A program made the position numbers and the translations under genes. From an uncultured Gemmiger sp. (GTDB taxonomy: Bacteria; Bacillota; Clostridia; Oscillospirales; Ruminococcaceae): a stretch of 54,892 bases of DNA. Each line of letters starts with the position of its first letter. Within the stretch, counting starts at the first letter, position 1. This document shows positions 3,052 to 54,892 of this stretch, piece by piece. The DNA lies in assembly GCA_944388135.1 (NCBI GenBank), contig CALXHP010000008.1:1-54892 (forward strand), written 5' to 3'. Below the pieces are notes generated by a model that was not told the origin of the DNA, did not search any database, and saw nothing but the letters and a program-made list of their open reading frames with translations.

Positions 3052-4428
3052 TCAGATCAATCCCTGAACCAGGATCACTACAATAAGAATGGGCAGGATA
3101 AACTGGAAGTAGGGCTTGAACACCCGGGCCATCTTCAGACCCGTGCCGGTGTTGCACTCTTCCATATATTTGTCGTAGCCCCAGCCCCAGCGGCTGACGC
3201 AGAACAGCAGGTAGACCAGGCTGCCGATGGGCAGCAGCAGGTTGGAGACCAGGAAGTCCTCGATATCCAGGATCTGACCGCCGGCCGGAGCGTTGGGCAG
3301 CGGCACCGAGAAGTACCACAGATTGTAGCCCAGTACGCAGGGCAGGCTTGCCAGCAGAATGAACACACCGCAGATAAGGGTGGCCTTTTTCCGGCTCCAG
3401 CCAAAGCAGTCGATGCAGCTGGCCATGATGTTTTCAAAAACTGCCAGAACAGTGGTAAAGCTGGCAAAGGTCATAAACAGGAAAAACAAAGCCCCCCAAA
3501 CCCGGCCGCCGGCCATGTTGACAAAAACCCGGGGCAGGGTCTGGAAAATCAGAGAGGGGCCTGCATCGGGCTCCACACCGAAGGCAAAGCAAGCCGGGAA
3601 AATGATGAGGCCGGCGCAGATCGCCACGAACGTATCCAGGGCGCAGATGCGAACCGCCTCGCCGGGAAGACTGTGCTCCTTGGTCATGTAGCTGCCGAAA
3701 ATCTCCATGGCCGCAATGCCGAGGCTCAAGGTGAAGAAGGACTGGTTCATCGCCGCCGTAATGACGTTGCCCAGGCCCACCTCAGAGGCCCGTTCCAGAT
3801 CGGGCAGCAGGTAGAAGGCGAGCCCCGCCTTGCCGCCGTCCAGCATGATGCTGTTGACCGCCAGCACCACGATCAGGACCAGCAGGGCCAGCATCATCCA
3901 CTTGGAGATGCGCTCCAGGCCTTTTTGCAGCCCGAAGGAGCAGACCAGGAAGCCGCCTACCGTAATGATGGCCATGAACACCGTCAGTTCCACAGGATTG
4001 GCCAGCATGGCGTTGAACACATCGCCCACGGCGCTGTTTTCCATGCCGTCAAAGGCACCGGTGGCAAACTTGTAGAAGTAATCCAGCATCCAGCCGGCCA
4101 CCGTGGTGTAGTACATCATCAGCAGGCAGCAGCCGATGATACAGAACCAGCCGTGGATATGCCATTTGCTGCCCTTGGGTTCCAGGGCCTTGTAAGCGCC
4201 CACCGCACTCTGGCGGCTTGCCCGGCCTACGGCCAGTTCCATGGTCAGCACCGGCACGCCCATGATGACCAGAAACAGCAGATAGAACAGAACAAAGATA
4301 CCGCCGCCGTTAGCCCCGGCCATCCAGGGGAATTTCCATACATTGCCAATGCCGATGGCACAACCGGCACTGACAAGGATGAAGCCGAGGCGGGAAGCAA
4401 AATGCTCCCGTTGTTTTTGAGATTCCAT
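3052..4428 (-). CDS. Sodium-dependent amino-acid transporter (SNF/NSS family)
   Basis: 458 aa polytopic membrane symporter using the Na+ gradient to import amino acids or related amines. TM1 has the family signature GCAIGIGNVWKFPW followed by GGG near residues 20-40. About 11-12 hydrophobic segments follow, including the FFTLSLG region of TM6 that forms Na+/substrate sites. I chose the ATG at 4428 because GGATGG lies 7 nt upstream. The GTG at 4449 would sit only a few nt from the expected transcription start. The substrate is unknown. It is divergent from a threonine aldolase with which it shares a -35 hexamer, which hints at an amino-acid (threonine/glycine-type) link. Confidence 0.92.
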   Translation of the reverse strand: MESQKQREHFASRLGFILVSAGCAIGIGNVWKFPWMAGANGGGIFVLFYLLFLVIMGVPVLTMELAVGRASRQSAVGAYKALEPKGSKWHIHGWFCIIGCCLLMMYYTTVAGWMLDYFYKFATGAFDGMENSAVGDVFNAMLANPVELTVFMAIITVGGFLVCSFGLQKGLERISKWMMLALLVLIVVLAVNSIMLDGGKAGLAFYLLPDLERASEVGLGNVITAAMNQSFFTLSLGIAAMEIFGSYMTKEHSLPGEAVRICALDTFVAICAGLIIFPACFAFGVEPDAGPSLIFQTLPRVFVNMAGGRVWGALFFLFMTFASFTTVLAVFENIMASCIDCFGWSRKKATLICGVFILLASLPCVLGYNLWYFSVPLPNAPAGGQILDIEDFLVSNLLLPIGSLVYLLFCVSRWGWGYDKYMEECNTGTGLKMARVFKPYFQFILPILIVVILVQGLI

Positions 4429-4462
4429 AATTTTTCCATCCTTCCTCACACAGATACGTCTT

Positions 4463-4514
4463 ATTATATCGCATTTTACCGGTCATTGCAAGGTTTACCC
4501 GTCTGTGCTATACT
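4463..4514. promoter_or_regulatory. Divergent promoters sharing one palindromic -35
   Basis: Rightward: TTGCAA (4486-4491), 17-nt spacer, TATACT (4509-4514), for the threonine aldolase. Leftward: the same self-complementary TTGCAA, 17-nt spacer, TATAAT (4463-4468), for the SNF transporter. The two promoters are exactly symmetric about the hexamer. Confidence 0.8.
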
Positions 4515-4545
4515 GGAAGATACCTGATGGAAAGGAGAATCGGAA

Positions 4546-5598
4546 ATGATTCGTTTTGAATGCGATTATGGCGAGGGCGCTGCCCAGCCTGTACTGGATC
4601 TTTTACAGAAAACCAATCTGGAACAGACCCCCGGTTATGGGGAGGATGAATACTGCGCCGCCGCTGCCGGCAAAATTCGTGCTCTGTGTGATGCGCCGGA
4701 CGCCGCCGTTCACTTTTTTGTGGGGGCCACCCAGGCCAATCTGACCGTGATTGATGCCGCCCTGAAGCCCTGGCAGGGGGTTCTTTGTGCCGAGACCGGC
4801 CACATTCATGTCCATGAGACCGGCTCCGTGGAAGCTACCGGCCACAAGTGTCTGGCCCTGCCCGCCACCGCCGGCAAAATCACTGCGGCCCAGATTCGCG
4901 CCGCCGTACAGGCTCACCGTTCCAATCCCAGCCATGAGCATGAGGTCCAGCCCGGCATGGTCTACCTCTCCAATCCCACCGAGGTGGGCACCCTCTACAC
5001 CAAGGAGGAACTGACCGATATCTCGGCTGCCTGCTATGAGCTGGGGCTGTACCTGTTTGTGGACGGCGCCCGCATGGCCTACGGCCTGACCAGCCCTGCC
5101 AACGACCTGAACCTGCAGGACTACGCCGCCCTGTGCGACGTGTTTTATCTGGGCGGCACCAAGTGCGGGGCCCTGTTCGGCGAGGCGGTGGTCATCACCA
5201 ACGACGATCTGAAGGAAGATTTCCGTTATGCCATCAAGCAGCACGGCGGCATGCTGGCAAAGGGCCGGCTGCTGGGGCTCCAGTTCCTGGCCCTGCTGGA
5301 GGGCGAGGACGGCAGCGGATGCAGCCCCTACTTCACCATGGCCGTCGAGGCGGACCGGCAGGCCCTGGAGATCCGCAAGGCCTTTACCGAAAAGGGTATC
5401 GGCTTGCTGCACGACTCCCCCACCAATCAGCAGTTCTTTGTGCTGCCTGACGCCTGGTACCACACCCTGGCGGAGCAGTATGCCATGAGCGAGATGGGCA
5501 AGCCCGATGAGGGCCACACCGCCGTGCGGATCTGCACCAGCTGGGCCACCCGCCCCGAGGCTGTGGCGCAGCTGATCACCGACGTCCGGAAGCTGTAA
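4546..5598 (+). CDS. ltaE: Threonine aldolase family PLP enzyme (low-specificity type)
   Basis: 350 aa, fold-type I PLP enzyme cleaving L-threonine/L-allo-threonine to glycine and acetaldehyde, or a related beta-hydroxy amino acid. Landmarks: YGEDEYCAAAAGKI near the N-terminus, the ETGHIHVHETGSVE segment, VDGARMAYGL with the cofactor-binding Asp, and FYLGGTKCGALFGE, which carries the Schiff-base lysine near residue 206. It resembles the 'aminotransferase class V/beta-eliminating lyase' subgroup of roughly 340-350 aa common in Clostridia. ATG preceded by AAAGGAGA. Monocistronic with a strong terminator. Confidence 0.9.
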   Translation: MIRFECDYGEGAAQPVLDLLQKTNLEQTPGYGEDEYCAAAAGKIRALCDAPDAAVHFFVGATQANLTVIDAALKPWQGVLCAETGHIHVHETGSVEATGHKCLALPATAGKITAAQIRAAVQAHRSNPSHEHEVQPGMVYLSNPTEVGTLYTKEELTDISAACYELGLYLFVDGARMAYGLTSPANDLNLQDYAALCDVFYLGGTKCGALFGEAVVITNDDLKEDFRYAIKQHGGMLAKGRLLGLQFLALLEGEDGSGCSPYFTMAVEADRQALEIRKAFTEKGIGLLHDSPTNQQFFVLPDAWYHTLAEQYAMSEMGKPDEGHTAVRICTSWATRPEAVAQLITDVRKL

Positions 5599-5604
5599 TT
5601 TTCT

Positions 5605-5740
5605 ACATAAAAAGCAAATGCACCTCAGCAGAAAACCTGCCGGGGTGCTTTTTGCATCTATTCAAATGGCGCAGGGCGCCTTGTTGGTTGTCTGCGCCGG
5701 ACCGAGGTTTTCGCCTCTCGCATGGTCCGACGGCAGTATA
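5605..5740 (-). ncRNA. Possible small RNA between ltaE and metI
   Basis: The 254-nt gap 5599-5852 contains no credible gene. On the leftward strand it has an extended -10 (TGATATACT, 5735-5743) without a good -35. Downstream come a hairpin GGACC..GAGG/CCTC..GGTCC (about 5697-5728), a second hairpin with GGCGCAG/CTGCGCC arms (about 5668-5698), and the terminator-like hairpin at 5620-5653. The result would be a structured RNA of about 125 nt. It could equally be the processed 3' end of the metNI transcript. Low confidence. Confidence 0.3.
5620..5653. terminator. Terminator after threonine aldolase
   Basis: Stem GCACC..GCAG/CTGC..GGTGC with an AAAAC loop followed by TTTTTGC. The leftward complement also ends in a T-rich run (ATTTGCTTTTT), so it may work both ways. 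Confidence 0.75.
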
Positions 5741-5852
5741 TCAGGTCTTTGGTTGTTTACCTTGACTTCCCCTATAGTATACGCCCAGATTGTGTCCGAG
5801 TTGTCACACCATTTTGAACCTTTTATGAATTTGGAAAAATCCGGAAGCCCTT

Positions 5853-6551
5853 TCAGCGCTGGATGCGCTTGTCGCACCGCAGGGCCAGCCGGGTACCCAC
5901 GGTCTGAAGAATCTGCACCAGGATGACCAGCAGCACGGTGGCAAAGATCTCCAGCACACCGTTGAAGCGGTAATAGCCGTAGTTGATGGCGATCTTGCCC
6001 AGACCGCCGCCGCCGATGATACCCGCCATGGCGCCGTAGCCCATGATGGTGGTGGTGGCAATGGTCACGTTGGAGATCAGACTGGGCATGCTCTCCGGGA
6101 TCATGACTTTGGTGATGATCTGCAGCGGCGTGGCCCCCATGCTCTGGGCAGCTTCAATGACACCGGCATCCACCTCCCGGATGCTGGTTTCCACCAGGCG
6201 GGAGACAAAGGGGAAGGACGCAATGACCAGCGGCACGATGGAAGCGGGGGTACCGATGGAAGTGCCCACGATCAGCCGGGAGAGTGGGATCACAATGATC
6301 ATCAGAATCAAAAAGGGCACGCTGCGCAGCAGATTGATCAGTGCATTGAGCAGACTCATGACCCAGCGGGGCAGCGGACGGACACCGCCCTGTTCGCCGG
6401 TGACCAGGCAGACGCCCAGGGGCAGACCGATGACCAGCGCCAACAGGGTAGCCACGGCGGTGGACCAGATGGTCTCCCAGGTTTCAAAGGGAATGGTGGG
6501 CAGCACCTGCAAGAAGGTAGCCCATTCTTTGCTTGCCAGTAACTCTGCCAT
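5853..6551 (-). CDS. metI: Methionine ABC transporter permease MetI
   Basis: 232 aa integral membrane subunit of the MetNIQ importer. It has five to six hydrophobic segments and the EAA-loop region ASMGATPLQIITKVMIPESMPSLISN (about residues 135-160), which contacts the ATPase. The reading frame begins one nucleotide inside the metN stop (TGATG), indicating translational coupling. Length is normal for MetI. The last gene of the operon; no strong terminator is seen within the first 100 nt after it. Confidence 0.96.
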   Translation of the reverse strand: MAELLASKEWATFLQVLPTIPFETWETIWSTAVATLLALVIGLPLGVCLVTGEQGGVRPLPRWVMSLLNALINLLRSVPFLILMIIVIPLSRLIVGTSIGTPASIVPLVIASFPFVSRLVETSIREVDAGVIEAAQSMGATPLQIITKVMIPESMPSLISNVTIATTTIMGYGAMAGIIGGGGLGKIAINYGYYRFNGVLEIFATVLLVILVQILQTVGTRLALRCDKRIQR

Positions 6552-47943: not shown

Positions 47944-49001
47944 GCCAAGCTGCCATTTGTGTGGTGGTTCCGGTCTATCGCGCCGAAACCACCCTGGACC
48001 GCTGTGTGGAAAGCATTCTCTCCCAGCAGGTGGAAGGCGGCGTCTGCTGTGTCCTGGTGGACGACGGCAGTCCCGACACCAGCGGTGCTATCTGCGATGA
48101 TTGGGCCGCCCGGGACAGCCGGGTCCGGGTCATCCATCAGGACGACCTGGGCGTGTCCAGCGCCCGGAATGTGGGCATGGCTGCTGCCGACAGCGAATAC
48201 CTGGTTTTTCTGGACTCTGACGACGCCCTGCGTCCCGGCGCCTTGCAGGCAGCACTGAACGCCCAAAGGGCCGCGCCGGACGCCTTTGTCCTCTGGCATT
48301 ACACCACCCGGGAGGAGGACGCCGCCCCGGTGACTGACGCCGCGGTTTCCCGCTCCCGGCAGGAGCTGGCCGCCCTGTGGCTGGATTGCCTGCTGGCCAT
48401 GCCCTGGAATAAACTGTACCGTACGGCATTGGCCCAGCGGATCAAGTTCAACACACAGTATACTTTGGGTGAAGATTTACAGTTTGTATTGGACTATATC
48501 GCTCTGCTGGCCACGGAAACCGCCGATTTTTCCTATCGTGTGCTGGACAGTGCCCTGACCTTTTACGATTGCAGCCGCACCGGGACCCTTTCCACCAAAT
48601 ACCACGCCAATTACTGCGAGATCTGGCCCCAGCATTTTGCCAAGCTGAATGCCGCCTGCCTGGCCGCCCAGTGCCCCGAAGCCGACCTGCGCCAGCTGCA
48701 CCGGGCAGAGCTGACCGTATTTGCGGAAGGTGTGGCCGACATTCTGCGCCGGGACCCCGCTCCTCTTTCGGGCATCCGGCGGGATAAGGCTGCCGCCGCC
48801 CTGCGTACCCCCTGGCTGCGGGCCCTGCTGGACCAGATGCGCCGGGAACGGTGCTACAGCGCCTACTACCTGCCCTGCCGCTGGCGCAATGCCCAGCTGG
48901 TGTATACCATGGCGGAGGCCAAACGCACCGGTTCCCCGCTGTACGGCAAACTGGACTGGGCGGGGTATTATCTGCTGGCCGGCCGCCTGCGCCGGGATTG
49001 A
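47940..49001 (+). CDS. GT2-family glycosyltransferase E
   Basis: 353 aa. ICVVVPVYRAETTLDRCVESIL, LVDDGSPDTSGAICDD, FLDSDDALRPGA and MPWNKLYRTALAQRI, LGEDLQFVLDYIAL. Last gene of the PPK2-GT operon; terminator at 49025-49056 follows. Confidence 0.92.
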   Translation: MSQAAICVVVPVYRAETTLDRCVESILSQQVEGGVCCVLVDDGSPDTSGAICDDWAARDSRVRVIHQDDLGVSSARNVGMAAADSEYLVFLDSDDALRPGALQAALNAQRAAPDAFVLWHYTTREEDAAPVTDAAVSRSRQELAALWLDCLLAMPWNKLYRTALAQRIKFNTQYTLGEDLQFVLDYIALLATETADFSYRVLDSALTFYDCSRTGTLSTKYHANYCEIWPQHFAKLNAACLAAQCPEADLRQLHRAELTVFAEGVADILRRDPAPLSGIRRDKAAAALRTPWLRALLDQMRRERCYSAYYLPCRWRNAQLVYTMAEAKRTGSPLYGKLDWAGYYLLAGRLRRD

Positions 49002-49024
49002 TCCCCTGCCCCATCAAACAAAAC

Positions 49025-49058
49025 AAGCCCCTGCCGCGACCTTGCGGCAGGGGCTTTT
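49025..49058. terminator. Bidirectional terminator, GT operon / small RNA
   Basis: 13-bp perfect stem AAGCCCCTGCCGC/GCGGCAGGGGCTT with GACCTT loop. TTTTGG on the right; TTGTTTTGTTTG on the leftward strand. Confidence 0.88.
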
Positions 49059-49219
49059 GGATACAGAAATGCCCCACCACCCGGAGCAGAAGGCGGTGGG
49101 GCCAGACAATCGCAGACCGCTGAAAAAGGCGCAGAGCAAAACGCCGAAACGGAGGCGCAGCCTGCCATTGGCAGAAACTCCGACCGGAGAGGCATACCGT
49201 CGGGTTTCAGATTGGTTAT

Positions 49220-49237
49220 GGTTAGCTTACGCTAACC
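49220..49237. promoter_or_regulatory. GGTTAG-N6-CTAACC inverted repeat at the small-RNA start
   Basis: Perfect 6-bp arms, starting 9 bp downstream of the -10. The same element with the same spacing occurs at 52617-52634. Half-sites equal those of the DtxR/IdeR consensus, but that consensus has a 1-nt centre. Could also be a 5' RNA hairpin. Confidence 0.7.
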
Positions 49238-49245
49238 ACGTGTAT

Positions 49246-49274
49246 ACTGTACCATATCTGCGGGCTGTTGTCAA
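49246..49274 (-). promoter_or_regulatory. Small-RNA promoter
   Basis: Leftward TTGACA (49269-49274), 17-nt spacer, TACAGT (49246-49251). Confidence 0.8.
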
Positions 49275-49300
49275 CGGTTTCCGGAAGATTTTATTTTCCT

Positions 49301-50068
49301 TCATTCTTTGGGGGCGTCGGGATAGTCCCGCACATGAAGCAGATTTTCGGCATCCTTGACCTCTTCTTCGGTGGGGACCCGCACACCCTCCAGCGGGTAG
49401 GGAATCCCCAGATTCTGCCATTTGAAAAGGCCCAGGGTATGGTAGGGCAGGATCTCCACCCGGCGCACGGTAGGCAGGGTCTTGATAAAGGCATCCAGCT
49501 GCCGCAGTCCGTCGGCATCGTCGGTCAGGCCGGGCACCAGCACATGGCGAATCCAGAGGGGTACCCCATGGTCCGCCACATACCGGGCCATGGCCAGAAT
49601 GTTCCGGTTGGTATGGCCGGTGAGAGCCTTGTGCTTCTCGTCGTCGATCTCTTTCAGGTCGAGGATCACCAGGCTGGTATGTTCCAGCATGGCGTCGAAC
49701 CGGGCCATCCAGTCGGCGTTGTCCGGTGCAAAGGGCTGGCCACTGGTATCCAGCGCAGTGTGGATGTTCTTGGCGTGGGCCAGGCGGAACACCTCGCTGA
49801 CAAAGTCCATCTGCAGCAGCGGTTCCCCGCCGCTGATGGTCAGACCGCCGTTGTTGCGCCAGTAGTTCCGGTACCGGCAGGCAGCGTCAAAGGCCTCCTG
49901 GGGCGTTTTGGCAGTCTCTTTGGTGAAAGCCCAGGTCTCGGGATTGTGGCAGTACTGGCACCGCATGGCGCAGCCCTGCAAAAAGATAATATACCGGACT
50001 CCCGGCCCGTCCACCAGGCCGAAAGTCTCTACCGAATGGACATAGCCCATGGTTTCCTGTTGTGACAT
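49301..50068 (-). CDS. pflA: Pyruvate formate-lyase activating enzyme
   Basis: 255 aa radical-SAM protein. FLQGCAMRCQYCHNPETW holds the CxxxCxxC 4Fe-4S motif (about residues 29-36), and LTISGGEPLLQMDF is the SAM GGEP motif. It installs the glycyl radical on PflB. Separated from pflB by a terminator-like hairpin at 50094-50128, so its expression is likely set by read-through. AAAGGAG is 12 nt upstream of the ATG. Confidence 0.97.
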   Translation of the reverse strand: MSQQETMGYVHSVETFGLVDGPGVRYIIFLQGCAMRCQYCHNPETWAFTKETAKTPQEAFDAACRYRNYWRNNGGLTISGGEPLLQMDFVSEVFRLAHAKNIHTALDTSGQPFAPDNADWMARFDAMLEHTSLVILDLKEIDDEKHKALTGHTNRNILAMARYVADHGVPLWIRHVLVPGLTDDADGLRQLDAFIKTLPTVRRVEILPYHTLGLFKWQNLGIPYPLEGVRVPTEEEVKDAENLLHVRDYPDAPKE

Positions 50069-50093
50069 AGTTGGGTAGCTCCTTTGTAAACAA

Positions 50094-50128
50094 AAGATCC
50101 GCGGCCACAGAGGACAGCCGCGGATCTT
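50094..50128 (-). terminator. Terminator-like hairpin between pflB and pflA
   Basis: Perfect 12-bp stem AAGATCCGCGGC/GCCGCGGATCTT, 11-nt loop, followed leftward by TTGTTT. Expected to reduce pflA relative to pflB. Confidence 0.75.
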
Positions 50129-50147
50129 ACAAAATCAGTTCAGATGA

Positions 50148-52400
50148 TTACAGCACCTTGTGGCAGGTACGGGCAATGACATCCAGCTGCTGCTCGCGGG
50201 TCAGGTCGATGAACTTGACGGCGTAGCCGGAAACACGGATGGTGAAGTTGGCGTACTCTTCCTTCTCGGGATGCTCCATGGCGTCGATCAGCTTCTCTTT
50301 GCCAAAGACGTTGACGTTCAGGTGATGGGCGCCCTGATCGAAGTAGCCGTCCATGACCTGGACCAGGTTCTCCACACGCTCCTGCTCACTGTGGCCCAGG
50401 GCGTCGGGGCTGATGGTCTGGGTGTTGGAGATGCCGTCCAGCGCCCAGTGGTAGGGCAGCTTGGCCACCGAGTTCAGGCTGGCCAGCAGGCCGTGGGTCT
50501 CGGCACCGTAGCTGGGGTTGCCGCCGGGGGCAAAGGGCGTGTAAGCCTTGCGGCCGTCGGGCATGGCACCGGTGGCCTTGCCGTACACCACGTTGGAGGT
50601 GATGGTCAGGATGGAGGTAGTGGGCTCGGAGTTGCGGTAGGTGTGGCGACGCTTGATCTTCTCGATGAAGGTGCGCAGCAGGTTCACCGCAATGTCGTCG
50701 GCGCGGTCATCGTCGTTGCCGTACTTCGGGAAGTCGCCCTCGATCTCATAGTCGGTGACCAGGCCCTGCTCGTTGCGGATGCACTTGACCTTGGCGTACT
50801 TGATGGCGCTGAGGGAGTCCACCACGTGGCTGAAGCCTGCAATGCCGGTGGCAAAGGTGCGGCGCACATCGGTGTCGATGAGAGCCATCTCGGCGGCCTC
50901 GTAGTAGTACTTGTCGTGCATATACTGGATGAGGTTCAGGATGTTGACGTAAAGGCCGGCCAGCCAGTCCATCATCACGTCATACTTCTGAACGACCTCA
51001 TCGTAATCCAGGTATTCGCTGGTGATGGGGGCATAGTGGGGGCCTACCTGCTCGCCCAGCTTCTCGTCCACGCCGCCGTTGATGGCGTAGAGCAGGCACT
51101 TGGCCAGGTTGGCGCGGGCACCGAAGAACTGCATCTCCTTGCCGGTCTGGGTGGCAGACACGCAGCAGCAGATGGAGTAGTCATCGCCCCAGACCGGCTT
51201 CATGACGTCGTCATTCTCATACTGGACCGAGGAGGTCTTGATGGAGATACGGGCGGCGTAGTCCTTGAAGGTCTTGGGCAGAGCGGAAGAATAGAGCACC
51301 GTGATGTTGGGCTCCGGAGCGGGGCCCATGTTTTCCAGGGTGTGCAGGAAGCGGAAGTCGGTCTTGGTGACCATGGAACGGCCATCCATACCGATACCGG
51401 CCACTTCCAGGGTCGCCCAGACGGGGTCACCGCTGAACAGCTGGTTGTAGCTGGGGATACGGGCAAACTTGACCATGCGGAACTTCATGACCAGATGGTC
51501 GATGAGCTCCTGGGCCTGCTCCTCGGTGATCAGGCCGCGCTCCAGGTCACGCTGGATATAGATGTCCAGGAAGGTGGACACACGGCCCACGCTCATGGCA
51601 GCGCCGTTCTGGGTCTTGATAGCAGCCAGGTAGCCGAAGTAGAGCCACTGGACGGCTTCCTTGGCGTTGGCGGCGGGCTGGGAGATGTCGTAGCCGTAGG
51701 TGGCGGCCATCGCCTTCATGCCCTTCAGGGCGTTGATCTGCAGGGCCAGCTCCTCACGCTGGCGGATCACATCGTCCAGCATGGTGCCGTCGCCGCAGTT
51801 GGCAAAGTCGTTCTGCTTCTCCTTGATCAGGAAGTCGATACCGTAGAGCGCCACACGACGGTAGTCGCCCACGATACGGCCGCGGCCATAGGTGTCGGGC
51901 AGACCGGTGACGATGTGGCTGTGGCGGGCCTTGCGCATCTCGGGGGTGTAGGCATCAAACACCGCCTGGTTGTGGGTGCGGGTATACTGGGTAAAGATCT
52001 CGTGCAGCTTGGGGCTGGGGGTGTAGCCGTAGGTGGTGCAAGCCTGCTCCGCCATCTTGATACCGCCGTAGGGCATAAAAGCGCGCTTCAGCGGCTTGTC
52101 GGTCTGCAGGCCAACGATCTGCTCCAGATCCTTGAGTTCGGGGTCGATATAGCCCGGGCCATAGGCTGTCAGGCCGGAGACCACCTCGGTCTCCATGTCG
52201 AGGACACCGCCCTTGGCGCGCTCCTCTTTCTGCAGGGCCTGCAAAGCACCCCACAGTTTGTTGGTAGCTTCGGTGGGGCCGGCGAGGAAACTCTCGTCGC
52301 CGGCATAGGGTTTATAGTTCTTCTGGATGAAGTCACGGGTATTGACTTCTTCCTTCCAGATGCGGCCTTCAAAGCCTTCCCACTGCTTGAAATCTGTCAT
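50148..52400 (-). CDS. pflB: Pyruvate formate-lyase (formate C-acetyltransferase)
   Basis: 750 aa from the ATG at 52400 (GAAGGAG upstream; an in-frame upstream ATG at 52418 overlaps that site). Converts pyruvate and CoA to acetyl-CoA and formate. Active-site cysteines in [29 protein letters not shown] (about residues 408-436), C-terminal glycyl-radical motif [10 protein letters not shown] (about residue 725). An extra Cys adjoins the usual Cys-Cys pair. First gene of pflBA, with two or three tandem promoters upstream. Confidence 0.98.
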
Positions 52401-52445
52401 AAACGCACTCCTTCTCATCGTTTACGTTCCATATGTGGTGTTGAC

Positions 52446-52482
52446 ACAGATACTATAATACCATATCTGTAAAAAAACGCAA
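52446..52482 (-). promoter_or_regulatory. Proximal pflB promoter with overlapping palindrome
   Basis: Leftward TTGCGT (52477-52482), 16-nt spacer, TATTAT (52455-52460). ACAGATA-N11-TATCTGT (52446-52452, 52464-52470) straddles the -10, a candidate repressor operator. Confidence 0.65.
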
Positions 52483-52522
52483 GGGGCAATTTCCCATTTT
52501 GTGGTTTTTCCGCCTCTGTTCC

Positions 52523-52579
52523 TATACTATAGCAAAAATATAGGATATTGTATGTTGTCCCGGCAACACTTTTTTGCCG
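52523..52579. promoter_or_regulatory. AT-rich pflB control region
   Basis: Inside the 333-nt gap 52401-52733 with no gene. Leftward TTGCCG (52561-52566 region) and TATATT suggest a middle promoter. CGGCAA/TTGCCG (52561-52579) and CCTATA/TATAGG (52523-52546) are inverted repeats. I recognise no Rex or Fnr consensus. Confidence 0.35.
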
Positions 52580-52616
52580 CTTCTTTTTTCCCTCCTTCCG
52601 GGTCTGCATTTTTAGT

Positions 52617-52634
52617 GGTTAGTTGTATCTAACC
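52617..52634. promoter_or_regulatory. GGTTAG-N6-CTAACC inverted repeat at the distal pflB promoter
   Basis: Same half-sites, spacing and distance to the -10 as the element at 49220-49237. Centre sequence differs (TTGTAT versus CTTACG), so the arms, not the loop, are conserved. Confidence 0.7.
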
Positions 52635-52642
52635 TTGTGTTT

Positions 52643-52671
52643 AAGATACCACGCTGCTTTCCCTTTGTCAA
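52643..52671 (-). promoter_or_regulatory. Distal pflB promoter
   Basis: Leftward TTGACA (52666-52671), 17-nt spacer, TATCTT (52643-52648), about 236 nt upstream of the pflB ATG. Confidence 0.7.
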
Positions 52672-52684
52672 GGGCAAACGCAAA

Positions 52685-52720
52685 AACGGCTGCGCTTTCC
52701 AGACGGAAAACACAGCCGTT
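52685..52720 (-). terminator. Terminator of the membrane-protein gene
   Basis: 16-bp stem AACGGCTGTGTTTTCC/GGAAAGCGCAGCCGTT (two mismatches/wobbles), 4-nt loop, followed leftward by TTTTGCG. Confidence 0.82.
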
Positions 52721-52730
52721 TGTCCTTCTT

Positions 52731-53951
52731 TCAGAAAAAGAGAAAGTGGTAGGTCGCAATGGGGATGTTGTAGGATTCCCCCTCCATCAGCAGGACCAGG
52801 AAGCAGATGCCGCTGAAGATATGCCACGCCAGGGCAGCACCGCAGACCCACACCCGTATTCCCAGGCGGCCGCCGCGTTCGCCGCTGCGCCAAGCTGCCA
52901 GGGCCCGGAGCCAGACCGATACCGACTCCAACAGAAACACCCAATAGCAGATAAACGGGCCCCACCAAAGGTTGGCATGGTAGAGACGCTCACCGCTTTC
53001 CACCAGCAGCAGGGCTTCCGCCATGGAGACCGCAAAGAGCAGCAGACTGAACCGGTACCGGAATTCCGGCCAGGCTCTGCGTCCCAGCAGGATGCCTACC
53101 GCCGCCACAAACACAAAGGAGCGCAGCAGCCCCAGCACCGCGGCTTCATTGAAGGGTCCCCACAGCATGGCGTGGCGGTCAAAATCCACCGTAAAAATCA
53201 GCTTCATGCCGCTGTCCGCCTCGGAAAACAACACGTTGGCCTGAATGAGACAAAGGCCTATGCTGGGCAGAACGCTGCAGCCCATAATGACTTCCTGACG
53301 GAAATTTTTGCCGTGAGTGCGGACCAGATCGGCGATCAGCAGAATCAGCAGAGCCGGGGCAAAGGCAAACACAAGACTTGCCTTGAAACTGGTGGCCAGG
53401 GTCAGGCAGACCGTATAGACCACCCAGGCCCGCAGATCCAATTTACCGGCCATGCTGTGCCAGGCAGGATAGAAGCTGAGAACCGCCAGCAGGGCAAAGG
53501 GGGCCAGCATGATATAGGTGGTATTGTGGTAGACAGTGCCGATGACGGTACCCTGGTACCAGTACCCGCCCCGGGGCATCCAGACCGCCTGGGCCAGATA
53601 CACCGCCAGACTGACCAGCAGCCGGGCCGGAGGGGACCACCTGGGCAGTGCCGGACGAAGGCCCCAGGCAAAAACTGCCACCGCTGCCAGATGGAACAGC
53701 GCCAGCAAAACGGCAATGCCCCAACGCCCGCCCAATGCGTAGGCCGGACCCACCAGTAAGGAGGTGGTGGAGTAGATCATGCCCCGCTGGGCAAAGGCCA
53801 GATGCTGCCCCAGGTCGGAGGTATAGGGGTCGTTGCCGCCCCCCGGGGAGCATAGCTGCTGGTAATGCAGCCAGGCCATAGCCATGGTAAAAAGCGCCAG
53901 GAGCGACAGTGCTGCTGCCCACAGAATGCGTTGTTTGGTCGTTTTGGACAA
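52731..53951 (-). CDS. Polytopic membrane protein, GT-C-like
   Basis: 406 aa with about ten to eleven membrane helices. TTG start at 53951 fits GGGAGG 8 nt upstream; the ATG at 54008 has no such site and sits at the transcription start. After TM1 an extracellular loop has PGGGNDPYTSDLGQHLAFAQ, whose Asp residues resemble the first-loop Asp motif of GT-C glycosyltransferases; VYHNTTYIMLAPFALL and SFKASLVFAFAPALLI follow. A polymerase or polyprenyl-linked transferase for surface glycan is possible but not proven. Monocistronic. Confidence 0.82.
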   Translation of the reverse strand: MSKTTKQRILWAAALSLLALFTMAMAWLHYQQLCSPGGGNDPYTSDLGQHLAFAQRGMIYSTTSLLVGPAYALGGRWGIAVLLALFHLAAVAVFAWGLRPALPRWSPPARLLVSLAVYLAQAVWMPRGGYWYQGTVIGTVYHNTTYIMLAPFALLAVLSFYPAWHSMAGKLDLRAWVVYTVCLTLATSFKASLVFAFAPALLILLIADLVRTHGKNFRQEVIMGCSVLPSIGLCLIQANVLFSEADSGMKLIFTVDFDRHAMLWGPFNEAAVLGLLRSFVFVAAVGILLGRRAWPEFRYRFSLLLFAVSMAEALLLVESGERLYHANLWWGPFICYWVFLLESVSVWLRALAAWRSGERGGRLGIRVWVCGAALAWHIFSGICFLVLLMEGESYNIPIATYHFLFF

Positions 53952-54822: not shown

Positions 54823-54823
54823 T

Positions 54824-54892
54824 GTTAGCTTAAGCGTAACAACAACCCCCGGCTATGCCGGGGAGTGTAAAGAGATTATATAGTGAAAAAAG
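54824..54892 (+). mobile_element. Possible left end of an IS200/IS605-type element
   Basis: After the sequence GTTAGCTTAAGCGTAAC comes AACAACCCCC and a hairpin CCCCGGC-TAT-GCCGGGG (54847-54863), then a potential GTG start at 54883 (GTG AAA AAA). IS200/IS605 elements carry a short subterminal hairpin just before a tnpA start, which this resembles. The coding part lies outside the window, so this is only a suspicion. Confidence 0.3.

Follow-up and report, generated by a model that had tools for sequence, protein, structure and literature searches.

We analysed a stretch of 54,892 nucleotides (the window) from an uncultured Gemmiger sp., contig CALXHP010000008.1, which is contig C8 of a 2.23-Mb genome that is 83% complete. 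Two leftward promoters in the window, one located directly after pflA in front of a small RNA gene and the other the distal promoter of pflB, carry the same operator. By sequence comparison we show the recurrence of this operator, the content of its regulon, the geometry of its promoters and the conservation and structure of the RNA. Jointly, these results point to an operator, a DtxR-type iron regulon and a small-RNA gene under its control, a reading to which we assign a probability of roughly 0.78. An earlier, sequence-only reading of the window had proposed such a system, and its interpretation as a whole is supported.

In the proposed mechanism, the operator would be bound by a single dimer of a feo-linked, two-domain DtxR-family repressor (genus Gemmiger or very near). 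When iron is plentiful, the metal-loaded repressor would sit near position +1 of the promoters and block them. When iron is short, the repressor would be released and expression of feoAB (ferrous iron uptake) would rise, together with flavodoxin in several relatives, pflB-pflA (with enolase in some relatives) and the structured small RNA encoded after pflA. The small RNA would most likely act in trans, its CU-rich loops base-pairing with the ribosome-binding site and first codons in mRNAs for enzymes that are costly in iron. PFOR would be the best candidate target, and pyruvate cleavage would move from iron-rich PFOR to iron-free pyruvate formate-lyase (PFL). That a regulon of gut Clostridia flips carbon flow at two levels in this way, with PFL derepressed and PFOR silenced by a pfl-encoded RNA, is a tentative proposal which we hold to be somewhat less than an even bet. 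If true, it would provide gut fermenters with a defined iron regulon whose operator can be put to the test, a new small RNA family of a kind so far known from few Gram-positive groups and a concrete mechanism by which dietary or host iron shifts gut formate, hydrogen and butyrate output.

The operator and its regulon

The operator of the small-RNA promoter (GGTTAGCGTAAGCTAACC, 49220-49237, minus strand) coincides with the predicted small-RNA start, and that of the distal pflB promoter (GGTTAGATACAACTAACC) lies at 52617-52634 on the same strand. Both match GGTTAG-N6-CTAACC exactly and are the only sites in the window with up to two mismatches. The small-RNA promoter reads TTGACA-N17-TACAGT with a TG before the -10 (49246-49274, minus strand; -35 at 49269-49274, -10 at 49246-49251) and the distal pflB promoter TTGACA-N17-TATCTT (52643-52671, minus strand; -35 at 52666-52671, -10 at 52643-52648). 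The spacing of -35, N17, -10, N8 and operator is identical at both, as the sequence-only reading had claimed, and an independent scan of 48950-52750 ranked the two operator-bearing promoters first among five promoter-like sites. Both genes between them are read leftward: pflB, encoding PFL (50148-52400, minus strand; Pfam PF02901 and PF01228), whose start at MTDFKQ after AAGGAG was picked by eye, the mechanical open reading frame beginning at 52418, and pflA, encoding the PFL-activating radical SAM enzyme (49301-50068, minus strand; PF04055 and PF13353).

Shuffling of the window gave a mean of 1.17 sites at two mismatches, and 31 of 100 shuffles contained at least two, so that inside the window exactness alone is informative. 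Across its own genome, three exact sites were found versus none for the reversed control, the third preceding a DUF3793 gene and accompanied, 60 bp upstream, by a copy with one mismatch. At up to two mismatches the control outscored the motif (35 versus 14 sites) and loose matches thus carry no weight alone. In 61 genomes (the window's own, G000, and 60 relatives; G000 to G034 are the 35 genomes of the genus) the exact motif occurred at 63 places in 32 genomes and the reversed control at one place, in line with the earlier argument that chance duplication is unlikely. Within the genus, 21 of the 35 genomes carry an exact site and 14 do not. The dyad is a putative regulon operator, not a product of chance.

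Promoter geometry was determined with a simple scoring scheme of our own, used without a shuffled control and with a threshold that excluded no site. Relative to the best -10, 38 of the 63 sites are located 0-12 bases after it, three overlap the promoter core and one lies upstream; all ten small-RNA promoters in this set have the operator 8 bases after the -10. The scan for sites beside promoters and iron genes that had been suggested earlier had a favourable outcome. The operator occupies the position where a blocking repressor would sit, suggesting direct repression; the remaining 21 sites, which begin over 12 bases downstream of that -10, weigh against this.

The half-sites had been likened to those of the DtxR/IdeR iron box, with the spacer of 6 as a worry. 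In PMC8464063, one IdeR dimer binds repeats 1 and 3 of the 19-bp DtxR/IdeR box TTAGGTTAGSCTAACCTAA, and a half site accommodates a single dimer; the same consensus is given in PMC1382209. This box consists of TTAG-N6-CTAA twice, overlapping and offset by 5, one dimer each. Because this unit is already found inside the iron box, a spacer of 6 is no objection to a DtxR-type site, and the single-dimer geometry of IdeR resolves the worry. Our operator contains the unit of one dimer, as far as sequence geometry can be compared with PMC8464063; the second overlapping site of the classical box is absent from GGTTAG-N6-CTAACC, and the dyad is predicted to be a single-dimer DtxR box. The DtxR/IdeR regulons of Actinobacteria, in which each dimer likewise covers TTAG-N6-CTAA (PMC8464063), share the half-sites but differ from the present system, with its site for one dimer only, protein of MntR size (about 125 residues), clostridial host and predicted control of feo, flavodoxin, pfl and enolase.

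We also searched the surroundings of DtxR relatives (80 loci; best 80 of 580 confirmed; 983,563 bases; labelled mainly Clostridia, some Erysipelotrichaceae) for GTTAG-Nk-CTAAC. It occurred 45 times at k = 6 (in 22 loci) and seven times at k = 10, i.e. 45 of 52 at spacer 6, and at no other k from 0 to 12 in the 80 loci, including k = 1; the reversed control gave 0-2, and 58 of the 80 loci lacked such a dyad in the stretch examined. A single-dimer box would appear to be used in many Clostridia, and searches with the full 19-bp box can miss such sites.

The 63 sites were assigned by matching their neighbourhoods to proteins of the window's own genome with BLAST and otherwise by reading open reading frames, with Pfam run on examples only. 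Feo genes account for 22 sites, of which six lie within the operon or immediately at feoB, and DUF3793 genes for 13. The remainder comprises the small RNA (10), pflB (4), enolase (4, two Pfam-tested), ABC transporters (4, one Pfam-tested), ZIP transporters (2, both Pfam-tested) and 4 unclear cases. The earlier suggestion that feo carries the motif held for the relatives and not for the exact motif in the window's own genome, where feoA has only three looser sites (one, one and two mismatches). Flavodoxin genes, the other suggested members, follow the site-bearing DUF3793 gene in seven loci by reading and were tested against PF00258 in two. Three genomes show the order enolase-pflB-pflA-RNA, in which one site precedes enolase and another the RNA, and exact sites before pflB were also found in G020 and G049, the latter belonging to another family of the order. 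G007 has a site between divergent PFOR and pflB genes, ca. 0.9 kb before pflB.

Several further observations concern the genes of the regulon. The DUF3793 family, of unknown function, often recurs as a partner, and at L060 and L068 (G001 and G026) a DtxR-like gene and a DUF3793 gene diverge from the site, with no feo in the stretch examined. FeoB of G000 (C30:3872-5976, L018) consists of two overlapping frames (3872-4744 and 4741-5976), a split representing a frameshift of either assembly or gene; in many relatives it is one frame of about 670-800 residues. Operator-bearing ABC-transporter-like genes (L050, L068, L078 and L088) are candidate iron or siderophore systems, those of L078 and L088 sitting behind an ATC-hydrolase-like or GLUG-repeat protein. 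A one-mismatch site at C1:63051 of G000 (L004) is found just upstream of a gene with weak, sub-threshold NifU similarity, a candidate Fe-S scaffold of the regulon.

The small RNA after pflA

The small RNA gene (49066-49239, minus strand) would yield a transcript of about 175 nt, the start being placed from the -10 and the end set by an intrinsic terminator (49071-49102, minus strand) whose loop is a CU-rich motif and whose T-run is weak in the window species. A second terminator-like hairpin (49025-49056, minus strand) lies downstream, between the small RNA and the convergent gene. In the consensus of ten aligned homologues, the 5' dyad is followed by a first hairpin, an irregular long stem and the terminator, and the invariant parts include the CU-rich loops (GCCTCT, GCGCCTCCG, TTTTGCTCTGC and TCTGCTCC in the window). 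With the dyad included, the RNA of the window folds with a z-score of -5.45 and none of 200 shuffles was as stable. Consensus pairs hold in 97.4% of alignment cells, and both-sided changes were seen in 15 cells compared with 5.2 in shuffled alignments (0 of 500). Three points speak against so clear a picture. Pairs with a both-sided change number six versus 3.6 when shuffled (20 of 500), the pairs were counted on a structure derived from that very alignment, and when RNAalifold is applied to all 13 RNAs the long stem and the terminator persist but the first hairpin of the ten is lost. Prediction and conservation nevertheless indicate a discrete structured RNA with a terminator and conserved open pairing loops.

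A covariance model built without the operator found 13 carriers of the RNA among 150 genomes, all within the genus (13 of its 35 genomes) and none outside it; the scan used stricter filters and scored at most 20 candidates per genome, so that counts based on absence are lower bounds. In all 13 carrier genomes the RNA directly follows pflA and its promoter lies under an iron-repressor-type operator. This operator is exact in ten homologues and reads AGTTAG-N6-CTAACT, a symmetric change, in the other three, whose identical spacing and place after pflA were read by eye.

Among the 22 genus genomes lacking the RNA, a pflA match exists in 11, in two cases a distant one (46-47% identity), and these 11 loci contain no operator and no convincing RNA. 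An unfiltered model search there returned ten weak matches, which we judged to be noise because no operator is present; the best (14.9 bits, rough E 0.0092) is on the opposite strand ca. 0.6 kb past pflA. Rfam gave no gathering-level match in the window and 12 related loci, eight of which hold an RNA homologue, and at a lax E-value only weak matches to the RNA region, the best being rnk_pseudo at 22.4 bits where 55 are needed. Among the open-licence papers listed, none describes the operator, the regulon or the RNA, which is no proof of their being unpublished.

The nearest functional analogues of the small RNA are MrsI (IdeR) and IsrR/FsrA (Fur). MrsI of Mycobacterium tuberculosis is an IdeR-linked, iron-sparing small RNA described with an IdeR site in its promoter (PMC8628891). 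The likeness, drawn from description and not from sequence, lies in a small RNA under a DtxR-family repressor, as predicted here; phylum, position and regulator branch differ, the present RNA following pflA. IsrR of staphylococci combines C-rich single-stranded regions with an intrinsic terminator and repressor boxes at its promoter, and a C-rich motif of FsrA of Bacillus binds Shine-Dalgarno sequences (PMC9410917). Both are controlled by Fur and not by DtxR, and no Rfam family (RyhB, FsrA and others) matches the RNA described here.

Candidate targets

PFOR, the best candidate for a target in trans, had been picked beforehand from an idea of the sequence-only reading. In the window species, whose PFOR gene is split over two contigs with its start on C44, loop 3 (GTTTTGCTCTG) is perfectly complementary over 11 nt to CAGAGCAAAAC in codons 2-6 of PFOR, and loop 2 pairs with the PFOR Shine-Dalgarno sequence with one G-U. 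An 11-nt match was reached by 3 of 20,000 dinucleotide shuffles. As background we used 298 open-reading-frame starts of G004, called by ourselves and some surely spurious; none pairs as well as PFOR with loop 3 of the window. Loops 2 and 3 jointly rank PFOR seventh of 298 in G004, and in ten RNA-bearing genomes the 11-mer occurs at 25 places, namely nine PFOR starts, four in the RNA gene and 12 elsewhere. Whole-loop ViennaRNA duplexfold produced implausible long duplexes and was replaced by contiguous stacking energies; by the duplexfold measure PFOR was not outstanding (rank 28 of 298 for loops 2 and 3, 116 for loop 4 and 177 for loop 1).

A number of results weigh against PFOR as the target. 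One of the 298 background starts also has at least 11 nt, and the full 11-bp pairing exists in only three of ten species, with 8 bp (rank 4 of 298) in four and 6 bp (rank 38 of 298) in three, where loop 2 pairs over 10 bp (rank 10 of 298). The PFOR codons in question are retained in G002 and G012, which lack the RNA, loop 1 finds equally strong partners at the starts of unrelated genes, and loops 2 and 3 are arranged in an order that forbids joint antiparallel pairing with one mRNA. The accessible part of a study on Roseburia intestinalis (PMC4659462) is ambivalent: at low iron, pfo changed 0.6-fold, the PFL-AE gene 2.3-fold and feoB 1.8-fold, and high iron also raised feoB, PFL-AE and pfo; regulator and RNA are unnamed in that part. 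The pairing is suggestive of a PFL/PFOR switch and not uniform, and silencing of PFOR by the small RNA is a sensible prediction to which we give somewhat less than an even chance.

Nearly as much as an even chance may be given to the alternative that the post-pflA transcript is iron-regulated and acts on other mRNAs, e.g. that of a flavoprotein, or binds a protein. The best of the 298 starts for loop 2 is a 12-nt perfect match at the Shine-Dalgarno sequence of an FMN-reductase-family gene in G004, whose product, with a Cys-rich stretch, we read as Fe-S-flavoprotein-like. The sequence GAAACGGAGGC at this start is kept in 6 of 11 RNA-bearing and 1 of 7 RNA-lacking genomes read (three further loci were unreadable), and the differences in PFOR pairing between clades also favour another target, whereas in the window species no compared start beats PFOR for loop 3.

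As a general target signature, the loop 2 complement AAACGGAGGCG was rejected, showing no enrichment in RNA-bearing genomes but rather the reverse. Outside the RNA gene it occurs five times in 13 RNA-bearing and 33 times in 22 RNA-lacking genomes (reversed controls 36 and 52). This rarity possibly reflects avoidance of off-target pairing, although relatedness among the RNA-bearing genomes is probable.

It is unlikely that the transcript has no regulatory role and is a mere leader, a 3' end or a small-protein gene. It does follow pflA directly, but it has its own consensus promoter with operator, a terminator, invariant loops and covariation; open reading frames are not conserved, a start with a ribosome site being found in one of the 13 homologues.

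Probable regulator and signal

A DtxR-family gene, whose presence the sequence-only reading had made a point of interest, was found at C30:6316-6690, downstream of and adjoining feoB at the end of the genome's own feo operon. Its two-domain product scores 48.1 bits for PF01325 (cut-off 26) and 53 bits for PF02742 (cut-off 27), i.e. both the N-terminal DNA-binding and the metal-binding/dimerisation domain are present, and contains the pattern DAC[RK]IEH. By this protein, the nearest named relative is Candidatus Gemmiger excrementipullorum (90% identity). In eight fetched loci the gene is divergent from feoA with a site between them. We infer this protein to be the regulator, acting by repression and with iron as the likely signal.

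Some features of the genome run counter to this assignment: the protein resembles MntR more than DtxR/IdeR, no NCBIfam equivalog cut-off is reached (87 of 153 and 62.5 of 138 bits for MntR, 36.3 of 290 for DtxR), two further sub-cut-off PF01325 matches exist and a Fur-family gene lies near feo. Given the closeness to MntR and the lack of an equivalog, the same regulon might sense manganese, which would place pfl and the RNA in a manganese response. The best solved relatives of the regulator are indeed MntR, and two sites precede ZIP transporters. We nevertheless consider this improbable, with ferrous-iron transport genes accounting for 22 of the 63 sites and DUF3793 genes for 13, a flavodoxin gene following in seven of the latter. 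Moreover, a metal-binding Glu of MntR aligns with Cys in our protein, as in DtxR/IdeR.

Binding of the dyad by another regulator, such as the Fur-family protein, whose gene stands beside rubrerythrin just upstream of the feo operon, is very unlikely. Half-site and geometry fit DtxR/IdeR, Fur boxes look different, and dyads are found between divergent dtxR and feoA in the eight loci and in 22 of the 80 loci around DtxR relatives. Finally, we give hardly any credence to the dyad acting as an RNA 5' hairpin (for stability or protein binding) instead of a DNA operator. In favour of such a role, 38 of the 63 sites coincide with a predicted transcript start, and in the small RNA the dyad forms the first hairpin. 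On the other side, its stem is invariant in ten RNAs without covariation, its spacer stays at 6 although the loop of a hairpin could vary in size, it matches the single-dimer half-sites of IdeR boxes and, by our own scoring, it overlaps the promoter core in three sites and lies upstream in one.

Apart from the DtxR-type operator, two features of the window were noticed by eye. An inverted repeat ACAGATA-N11-TATCTGT at 52446-52470 spans the likely proximal pflB promoter, is partly kept in L056 and is perhaps the site of a second regulator. Near the window end, an imperfect palindrome, TTGTTAGCTTAAGCGTAACA(A), is located at 54823-54842 after a strong hairpin.

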